DNA of 64,000 bases from Plumapathes pennacea (taxonomy: Eukaryota; Cnidaria; Anthozoa; Antipatharia; Myriopathidae): positions 11,114,067-11,178,066 of the forward strand of contig OZ038469.1 of assembly GCA_964036295.1 (NCBI GenBank), written 5' to 3'. Numbering within the stretch: position 1 is the first letter of the stretch; each line of letters starts with the position of its first letter. The notes under the pieces are model-generated. The model was not told where the DNA came from and did not search any database. It was given only the letters and a program-made list of their open reading frames with translations. Positions 38,560 to 50,272 of the stretch are shown here, in pieces. The translations under genes and the position numbers were made by a program.

Positions 38560-41500
38560 CTAAAATGCAAAATTATATGTTTTCTCTCTGGGAACGTCAG
38601 CTTCTTGATCAACCTATGAGATAAAACAAAACAAAACAAAAAAAAGTTTTAATCTTGTGAATAACTGAACCCCCTTATATACCCACCAAGGGTATTTTAC
38701 TCTGAAAAAAAAAAAAAAAAAAAAAAGAACCGGGACTAGTATAAATTGTTGATTTACAGTGAACTTTCTCTAAGGCAGACACCCTCAGACCACACTTAGT
38801 GTCCGCCTTAGAGAGGTGTGATTGCCTTACAGAGAAACAAGTGAAAATCGGCAAACAGCCAAATCTGCATGCTGTCTGCCTTAGAGAGGTGTCTGCTTAG
38901 AGAGGGTTGACTGTATATTGTGCAAATATATAAAGAATTTTCTGATGAGCAAGTCAGTTCTTGCTTAGGAATGAGGGTCAAAGGGAATTAAGGCACACTT
39001 TCCATGACCCTAATCAGTCCAACTGCTGAACTGCATCCACTCACCTCCACATTATCCCTGAGCCCTGTATCCAAATCGTCAAACGACTTGAGCAAATCCT
39101 TTACTTGCTTTGTGACTTCATCATTGGCACTCTGAAGCTGACTGATTTCCTGATAAAATTATTAAGATATACAATGTGTGAGACTCCCTCTAATGAGCGC
39201 TGAATGCACTGGAAGGTGCTCCTACATAAGGGAATCTCTTTTACACCTGACATTGTATTGTGTACTACTAACGGTACTCTAAAGGAATAATGATGGAAAG
39301 GGTATATTTTCAAAGGTCAAAATGAGCATAATGGACAGGCTGCTAGAACTATAATAATATAATTATATATAATAAAATATACATTATATATTATATATAT
39401 TATATATAATAACTACCATTATACCAACAATATTATTTTATTTCTATACTGGTTAAAGAATATTATATTGTCAGGCTATTGCATGTTCCTCTCTCTCTAG
39501 TAAATTGTGTTAAAATTTTCACAACAAAGGTACATTTTTACTGGTCAGGAGGGACTTTACAATATTACAACTATTTTGACCCTAGGATAGAATTTAGAAG
39601 TGTACTGAACAGTAATATTACTGAAGTTTAGGATCTATAGGGTTTGAGAGTCTGCACAGAGGCCCTTCCTATACTTTATTTTGTAAAGTTCACTATAGCA
39701 TCAGTGCGCTCACTGTCAGCTCACCATCATTAGGTGACACTGATATATTATAATAATAAATTATATATTTATACAGTGATATAAAACAGTTAATTAGCAA
39801 CAAACCTTTTCAAGGTTATCACTTGCTTCAGGAAGAGCATCTGATCTCTCATCAGCATCTCTGAACTCATCATCATCATCAAAATCTTGCGAATTTACTC
39901 CATACTGTTGTTGGCCTGCTTCATGAGAAACTTCTCTGGCAAAATCATGAGCACCTTCCTCATCATCGTTTCTCTCCTTGTCAAAAGTGTCCTCGTTAGC
40001 ATCATCTGCTACATTCTCTAAGCGCTCTTGAAACTTTTCTTCATCAGGAAAGTCTTGACGACTGTAGGTTTCGACTTTCTGATCATCTTCATCATCCACT
40101 GCATCCTCATCGATTCTCTCATCATCAAGATTGTCCTCATTAGCATCATCTGCTACATTCTTTAAGCCCTCTTGAAACTTCTCTTCATCAGAAAAGTCTT
40201 GATGCCTAAATGATTCAATTTCCTCATCATCCTCTAAGTCATCATCATCATCCACTGCATCCTCAAATGCGTTTCTCCCCTCTTCTTCAGAGTCCCAGCC
40301 TGCATCTTCTAAATAAAATTGAGGTTCAAACACTGTAAACATATTAAATTAATTGATTATTTTAAATTTTCCCCTTTGAGATATTTTGTGAACAAATACT
40401 GAACCTGAGACCTCCTGAGGTAATTCTATATGTTACATACAGCTCCCTGACAATCTGAAATAATGAGCAGTATACTATCCCACACCTGCCATGAAGAATT
40501 AGATGTACAGCATGAGCTACTGAACTAGTAGTGAGAATTAATATACTAAGATTACAGCAAGCTGCATGCGCATTGAATCTCTCCTAGTTCAAATAATATT
40601 ATTTTTACCACAACTCACTAGTTTCTTGCTCTCTGATTGGTCATCGTAAATAAGAATCCAGACAATGCTGCTGACACCAGCATGTCACGCTTTGCAACAA
40701 AATACAACGAAACTTTCTTGGAATGTATATTTCTAAATATCGTGGTAAAAAACAAATCTCCACTGGTTTGCCGTGCTGTGGATTCTTTTTTACCACAATT
40801 TACTTCATCACATTGTCAAAATGTTGTGGACTCACAAGGCACTTGGTTGCTTTAAAAGTTGGATGATCAGGGGGCAGGGTCTGGAGAGAACACCAGAATT
40901 GGTATGCACTGCATGTACAGCCAAACATAGGCACTTAATGCCAGTCTGAGATAATTGACCCATGCATTGCTGTTGATGAAGTCTGATGTTTTTGTGTGCT
41001 CATGACTATTAACTGTTGCTTTTTCTCAGTCTTGGAAATTTTTTTTTAGATAGTATAGGCATGGAGAGGTCTACCGTATCAACAATCGGCTTCAAATTGA
41101 GAGATCGATTAGTACAAAACTAGTACTGTATAGAGCATTTCTCAGATGACTATCGAAAGAAATGGTGTGATTGCTTTGGTTTTGGAAGCAACTCAACCAA
41201 AGAAGCGATTGATTGCAAGTGGAACGGTGTTTTTTCACACTGCTGATTGGTATCTTGTTCAAAGCCAAACCAATCGCAAATTACTTTACATTCTGGAAAC
41301 TGCTCTATTGCATTTATAAGAAAGAGCTTTGTACCTGTATTCGAGGCCAGGTTAAAGAACTTGATGGCCATTTTGTAGTCTCTCCTAACACCCAAACCGT
41401 CTGTGAAACAAATATAAATTGTATAAGATGAATAGTATGCGTGATCTGATTGGTAGACGATGACGATGCCGCGCACATTATAACTCCACAACGCACGCGG

Positions 41501-50272: not shown

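Follow-up and report, generated by a model that had tools for sequence, protein, structure and literature searches.

The window, the whole 64,000-nt stretch of Plumapathes pennacea DNA that was analysed (C8:11114067-11178066 of a 290-Mb, 24-contig assembly), carries the whole of a SEL1L gene on its minus strand (17611..31850). Conceptual splicing of the 23 predicted SEL1L exons gave a protein of 930 residues, with one stop, at its end, a hydrophobic segment at the C-terminus and a signal-peptide-like exon of its own (31850-31775). Between SEL1L and a second minus-strand gene, which holds a duplicated piece of SEL1L and is called the host gene here, lies a plus-strand gene (32284..37167) recognised from its open reading frames and domains. 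Stealth CR1/CR2, LNR and DMAP-binding domains were matched in Pfam by the first of these frames, and from this domain make-up we take the gene to be GNPTAB-like. In SEL1L intron 6, a decayed stretch (27000-27740) with 13 stops in the frame tried resembles by eye a GIY-YIG endonuclease of Penelope-like elements.

The host gene is predicted to consist of exon 1 (50194..50272), with the start codon, a signal-peptide-like segment and a phase-1 donor (AAG/GTTTGT), an acidic exon 2 (39806..40332) with a 48-residue internal tandem repeat (40232-39945), exon 3 (39045..39149), encoding a short coiled-coil-like segment, and exon 4 (38560..38613), which includes the stop, all on the minus strand. Without the SEL1L-derived exons, the predicted product has 254 residues. 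It found no PDB match at E 0.1 and two coiled-coil matches in Pfam, both below the cut-off (E 0.05 and 0.088), and a genome search placed the acidic exon at a single site, with no paralogue found. The internal repeat gave a pS of 0.29 and a pN of 0.18 over 48 codons, consistent with only weak constraint. The host protein and the SEL1L N-terminus are both acidic and both carry an LEKEI-QL stretch, with a similarity score reached by 2 of 300 shuffles (1 of 300 for the C-terminal piece of the same comparison), the shuffles ignoring local composition; on this likeness, the host gene may be an ancient, incomplete duplicate of the SEL1L N-terminus. That its exons are no more than the start of SEL1L was ruled out, because the GNPTAB-like gene intervenes on the opposite strand and SEL1L has its own signal exon. 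Elsewhere in the window, a tandem array of a 43-bp unit occupies 54055-55418 (26 registers, 65-100% identity to a reference stretch).

A duplicated SEL1L block bordered by a transposon

Self-BLAST of the window revealed one large direct duplication, in which 40970-45379 matched 20468-24867 on the same strand with 98.87% identity across 4,426 columns. The parental block, copy A (20468..24867, minus strand), lies inside the complete SEL1L gene, and copy B (40970..45379, minus strand, 4,410 bp) carries SEL1L exons 10-17 in the parent's orientation, 20.5 kb away on the same chromosome, which confirms the same-orientation 4.4-kb duplication proposed by an earlier, sequence-only reading of this locus. 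Base-by-base alignment of the two copies identified 13 substitutions and 8 gaps. Three substitutions (20916, 21613 and 21970) fall outside simple repeats, while the remaining 10, and all 8 gaps as read by eye, lie within homopolymers, microsatellites or short tandem repeats. With hand-chosen simple-repeat stretches masked, the non-repeat divergence between the copies was 3 in ~3,841 positions, or 0.078% (95% interval 0.016-0.23%), in keeping with the youth that had been claimed for the duplication. A genome search with 40970-43130 returned no full match besides copies A and B, the other matches being a dispersed repeat of ~240 bp internal to the block; searches with 40970-43130, 24700-25200 and 45100-45600 likewise returned no further full-length copy of the block. 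A retained haplotig was ruled out, because the flanks of copies A and B are unrelated.

At the downstream edge of copy B (40969/40970), the sequence changes abruptly without a TA (CAACAG/CAATG), and its two flanks have no repeat in common. A hairpin-forming repeat family is present at 38094-38439, 40599-40844 and 63856-63960 and in at least dozens of places in the genome; its copy at ~40595-40844 lies in host intron 1, close to the SEL1L copy but off the junction. Two further structures are found in both copies: a foldback in SEL1L intron 12 (23130-23354), with two 108-nt arms that are 91% complementary and 9 nt apart, was duplicated along with the block (43631-43855), and a degenerate relic in SEL1L intron 17 (20631-20805 and 41133-41307) has ends that by eye resemble those of the transposon described below.

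Although the sequence-only reading placed the copy correctly between the host signal exon and the acidic exon, it missed a transposon of 3,842 bp (45380..49221, plus strand) that lies there, between the signal exon and the SEL1L copy. The element, which we take to belong to the Tc1/mariner (IS630) superfamily, starts with GAGCGGTTTTCGAATGACTGTCGAAA and finishes in the reverse complement of GAGCGGTTTTCGAATGACTGTCGAAA, so that terminal inverted repeats are present, with outermost bases GAGCGG...CCGCTC and a TA on either side. Its transposase frame is broken by one in-frame stop into two pieces (45788-46291 and 46292-46804), which matched DDE_3 (PF13358, E 2.3e-17) and a PAX-like helix-turn-helix (PF00292, E 5.6e-05, bit score 23.5 with the cut-off at 22). 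The first base of the transposon directly follows the TA at the upstream end of copy B (45378..45379), the exact boundary of the two, and the far-side TA is at 49222-49223; the two TAs border unrelated sequences. The left flank, 49224-50300, occurs at a single genomic place and is unrelated to SEL1L intron 9, and therefore the element and the copy do not simply lie within a longer duplicated SEL1L block.

From the genome matches, 27 relative loci had both ends paired, and the 20 that were fetched and compared all show the arrangement TA-GAGCGG...CCGCTC-TA. The family looks young by sequence: 25 of the 42 matches listed outside the window have 97-99% identity over the transposon right end, and the window element diverges by 0.4-3% from long matched pieces of its relatives. 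When 25 bases per side were compared by eye, no pair of the 20 fetched copies matched in one flank only. Two relatives in opposite orientation ~417 kb apart (L070, C2:18260438-18265656, and L071, C2:17843067-17847474) have both flanks in common at 99.3% identity, one of them with ~810 additional bases within the element; this pair would represent an inverted segmental duplication or an assembly duplicate.

The site in copy A that matches the transposon junction reads TA-TC-TA (24866..24871, plus strand), a candidate 2-nt excision footprint. On the plus strand, copy B runs ...CTTGTACTA and then directly into the transposon, and copy A reads ...CTTGTACTATCTATATATG. The TC of the candidate scar equals the final two bases of the transposon, and TA-TC-TA is the remnant expected if an element ending in ...CCGCTC had been excised with its two terminal bases left behind; footprints of 2-4 bp are reported for excised Tc1/mariner elements (PMC7913693). 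The pattern TA(GA or TC)TA occurs at 31 of the 4,353 TAs in the window (0.7%, the scar site counted), with 8 more in the 3-nt form, and the candidate scar sits in an AT-rich tract, where such motifs exceed the window average. We take the scar as supportive only, because it was recognised post hoc and lies in this AT-rich tract. The transposon junction and the candidate scar both go beyond the earlier reading.

Origin of the duplication

The locus very probably represents a genuine and very recent insertion of an exon cassette, the transposon-associated origin of which would still be legible in its sequence. With moderate confidence, we favour a real and recent duplication by transposon-associated break repair over selection for a chimera. 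In an ancestral allele, as the scar and the junction suggest, a Tc1/mariner-like element would have resided at a TA in SEL1L intron 9, and a second copy, which is assumed, would have resided in host intron 1, where a break occurred at its end. The broken, element-bearing end would then have paired with the homologous element in SEL1L and been extended through the element end and 4.4 kb into SEL1L, by synthesis-dependent strand annealing (SDSA) on an ectopic template, before end-joining to the remaining host intron 1 at 40969/40970. What the assembly itself contains is a SEL1L gene with TA-TC-TA at the site and without the element.

In favour of this repair model, the copy ends at the terminal TA of the element to the base, which a random breakpoint would rarely match, and the divergence between the copies (0.078%) is lower than that among the elements (0.4-3%), as expected if the elements came first. 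Genome searches of the assembly found neither an element-bearing SEL1L intron 9 (query 24700-25200) nor a second or empty host locus (query 49224-50300). Repair duplications of nearby sequence with SDSA hallmarks are documented in human, at up to 619 bp (PMC2671141), and filler DNA of 1-123 bp at rice excision sites has been described with ectopic SDSA invoked (PMC4423477). Like the duplications by proximal DNA capture of Pace et al. 2009 (PMC2671141), which can copy exons together with splice sites, the present one is intra-chromosomal, closely linked and of the SDSA type; by contrast, those are of 619 bp or less, whereas this one spans 4.4 kb and has a transposon end as one of its breakpoints. 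As in the rice cases (PMC4423477), an element terminus here serves as the rearrangement breakpoint, but the element is gone in those cases and is kept beside the filler in this one. Against the repair model, no intermediate allele came up in those genome searches, the scar is a single post hoc site, 4.4 kb far exceeds both the human repair duplications and the rice fillers, and the outcome in which one flank is shared did not recur among the 20 fetched element copies.

Other routes could lead to the same arrangement. An unrelated duplication might have come first, with the transposon inserting later at its junction, or inserting in the copy with subsequent loss of the sequence up to the element end. 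The family is numerous in the genome, and a one-sided adjacent deletion also yields a junction at an element end, as described for one rice case in which 2,479 bp of flanking sequence were lost precisely up to the element terminus (PMC4423477). We nevertheless consider a late insertion unlikely, as a hit on precisely the junction TA would be a chance event when the window alone offers 4,353 TAs, the deletion version requires one more event, and neither version predicts the scar in copy A. An assembly error, in which the contig path ran from the host-intron transposon into SEL1L of another haplotype, seems less likely again: a 3.8-kb repeat with copies up to ~99% identical is a classic place for a misjoin, and the divergence between the copies is as low as that between alleles, but the flanks of 40969/40970 hold no common repeat, the window has zero N, copies A and B differ by three substitutions and several repeat lengths, and the mismatched flanks speak against a haplotig. 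It is very improbable that the element and the 4.4 kb moved together by aberrant transposition, with 49221 as the one true end and some cryptic or different end in use towards SEL1L. The degenerate element with similar ends in SEL1L intron 17 (~20631-20805) lies within the copied block, yet the copy runs ~160 bp beyond this relic and ends without a TA, and cut-and-paste transposition moves sequence rather than copying it, unless repair follows.

The predicted chimeric transcript

The cassette consists of eight exons of 573 nt in total (41335..45175, minus strand) that are in frame and phase 1-1. The exons of copy B are 45175-45105, 44727-44647, 44007-43951, 43510-43442, 42820-42743, 41946-41884, 41761-41674 and 41400-41335. 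All eight are identical to their parents over all 573 nt, and AG is kept at 8 of 8 acceptors and GT at 8 of 8 donors, as the earlier reading had stated for the sixteen splice sites and the exons; two acceptor tracts each show a one-base difference upstream of the AG. Cassette entry and exit, the end of host exon 1 and host intron 1 are all in phase 1. In-silico splicing of host exon 1, the cassette and host exons 2-4 produced an open frame of 446 codons including the stop, with 445 residues and a single terminal stop, and the earlier description of cassette length, phases and open chimeric frame was thereby reproduced.

The odds of such a match had been put at one in six for strand and phase, which proved too generous. 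When 4.4-kb SEL1L blocks were drawn at random, 16,014 of 200,000 (8.0%) had phase 1-1 ends, or 4.0% including strand, and one in twenty-five is unremarkable for a single event chosen by eye from a genome. Exon identity indicates youth rather than proven constraint, because with only 3 substitutions in ~3,841 positions, the probability that three neutral substitutions leave the exons untouched is 0.62, as compared with 0 observed in 573 exon bases.

On a small matrix derived from the 22 introns of SEL1L, the cassette exit donor scored 7.8, the entry acceptor 10.4, the host donor 8.4 and the host acceptor 10.7, all inside the SEL1L range; these scores are descriptive only, because the SEL1L sites were in the matrix. 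Intact splice sites make exon inclusion the default. Because the splice sites are intact and the ends are phase 1-1, an in-frame mRNA is the default expectation for this allele, and the predicted mRNA would encode a signal peptide, Sel1 repeats 5-8 plus helix 9A, and the acidic domain. With inclusion as the default, the chimera would be made instead of the normal host product and not alongside it. Most likely, the cassette allele is close to neutral or disrupts the host gene mildly, and it may still be polymorphic.

Domain content and consequences of the chimera

The cassette matched solved SEL1L chains with an E of about 1e-100 and aligned to residues 3-163 of the 186-residue chain 5b26, which is the mouse SEL1L central domain, residues 348-533 (PMC4746701). 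Its end maps to about mouse residue 510-512, so that Sel1 repeats 5-8 and helix 9A are included, in line with the mouse central domain, and the cassette stops at the hinge; unlike the mouse domain, it has no post-hinge helix 9B, and it carries an extra linker before repeat 5. In the 547-residue chain 8ket_C, the best match was to 149-338, with later repeats weakly matched, and SLR-C, the region of HRD1 binding, is outside the cassette. The cassette terminus, ...FNLASNT, places a T at the position of mouse Gly512. The exon 17/18 border falls within the codon equivalent to Gly513, which is read as Val in the chimera, and helix 9B is encoded in exon 18.

In mouse SEL1L, helix 9B is reported to form a swapped dimer for self-association, HRD1 to bind SLR-C only, and fragment 348-497, lacking repeat 9, to be monomeric and secreted and not to bind full-length SEL1L; competition is reported for the whole central domain but not for this fragment when it carries a KDEL tag (PMC4746701). 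S658P in SLR-C is reported to weaken HRD1 binding (PMC10873344). The predicted chimera is without either known route to interfere with SEL1L-HRD1, because both SLR-C and helix 9B are absent. The suggestion that such a protein might compete with SEL1L for HRD1 finds no support in this domain content, given the roles described for the two regions (PMC4746701). As it lacks helix 9B, the cassette is nearer to the monomeric, secreted mouse fragment than to the competing central domain, but it retains helix 9A and is not equivalent to the 348-497 fragment; with Thr in place of Gly512 in this animal, the mouse dimer may not apply. By analogy with mouse, the chimeric protein should be monomeric, secreted or degraded, and should bind neither SEL1L nor HRD1, and it may still affect client binding or compete for clients.

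It is tentatively possible, though doubtful, that the locus represents an in-frame secreted chimera that has only just arisen, in which eight SEL1L exons were copied by transposon-associated repair into a phase-matched intron of a nearby gene for a secreted protein, and the allele is transcribed with all eight exons spliced in to yield a monomeric, secreted Sel1-repeat/acidic protein, while still being polymorphic in the population. A functional newborn gene, transcribed, fully spliced and making such a secreted protein under selection, would fit the open chimeric frame, the 16 intact splice sites, the entry acceptor and exit donor, with scores among those of the SEL1L sites on the simple SEL1L-derived matrix, and the Sel1 repeats recognised in the cassette (PF08238, E 3.4e-37). 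Such a gene is nevertheless quite improbable, as age alone accounts for the exon identity (P = 0.62 without constraint), the host gene belongs to no recognised family, no paralogue of it was found and its internal repeat suggests only weak constraint, and SLR-C and helix 9B are missing from the domain content (PMC4746701). Of the proposal that a gene was formed here by exon shuffling, the cassette and its phase match hold; the gene is possible but unsupported, with a host gene that is itself predicted and an exon identity expected from youth.

In classical exon shuffling, symmetrical (1-1) modules enter phase-1 introns. The present event is alike in that a symmetrical 1-1 block entered a phase-1 intron of a signal-peptide gene in sense orientation. 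It differs in that the block stops partway through a repeat, after helix 9A and before helix 9B, and not at a domain boundary, and in that the chimera here is a predicted one. The literature found on SEL1L and exon shuffling held no report of such a chimera in the portions available. The genes from which exon shuffling is usually deduced are old, and their junctions have long decayed, whereas here the junctions, donor, recipient, transposon and candidate scar are all readable at 0.08% divergence, and each step of one shuffling event is therefore testable in the same species. The locus also illustrates that a phase-matched block can seem purposeful and yet cut a structural unit, in this case at the hinge between helices 9A and 9B, and thereby lose the interesting interactions.

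Elsewhere in the assembly, on a mitochondrial-looking contig (C24:4629-6872), cox1 matches occur in pieces ~850 bp apart, one with TGA and TAA inside and one with two TGA, as would fit a cnidarian or sponge mitochondrion, and their spacing suggests an intron in cox1.
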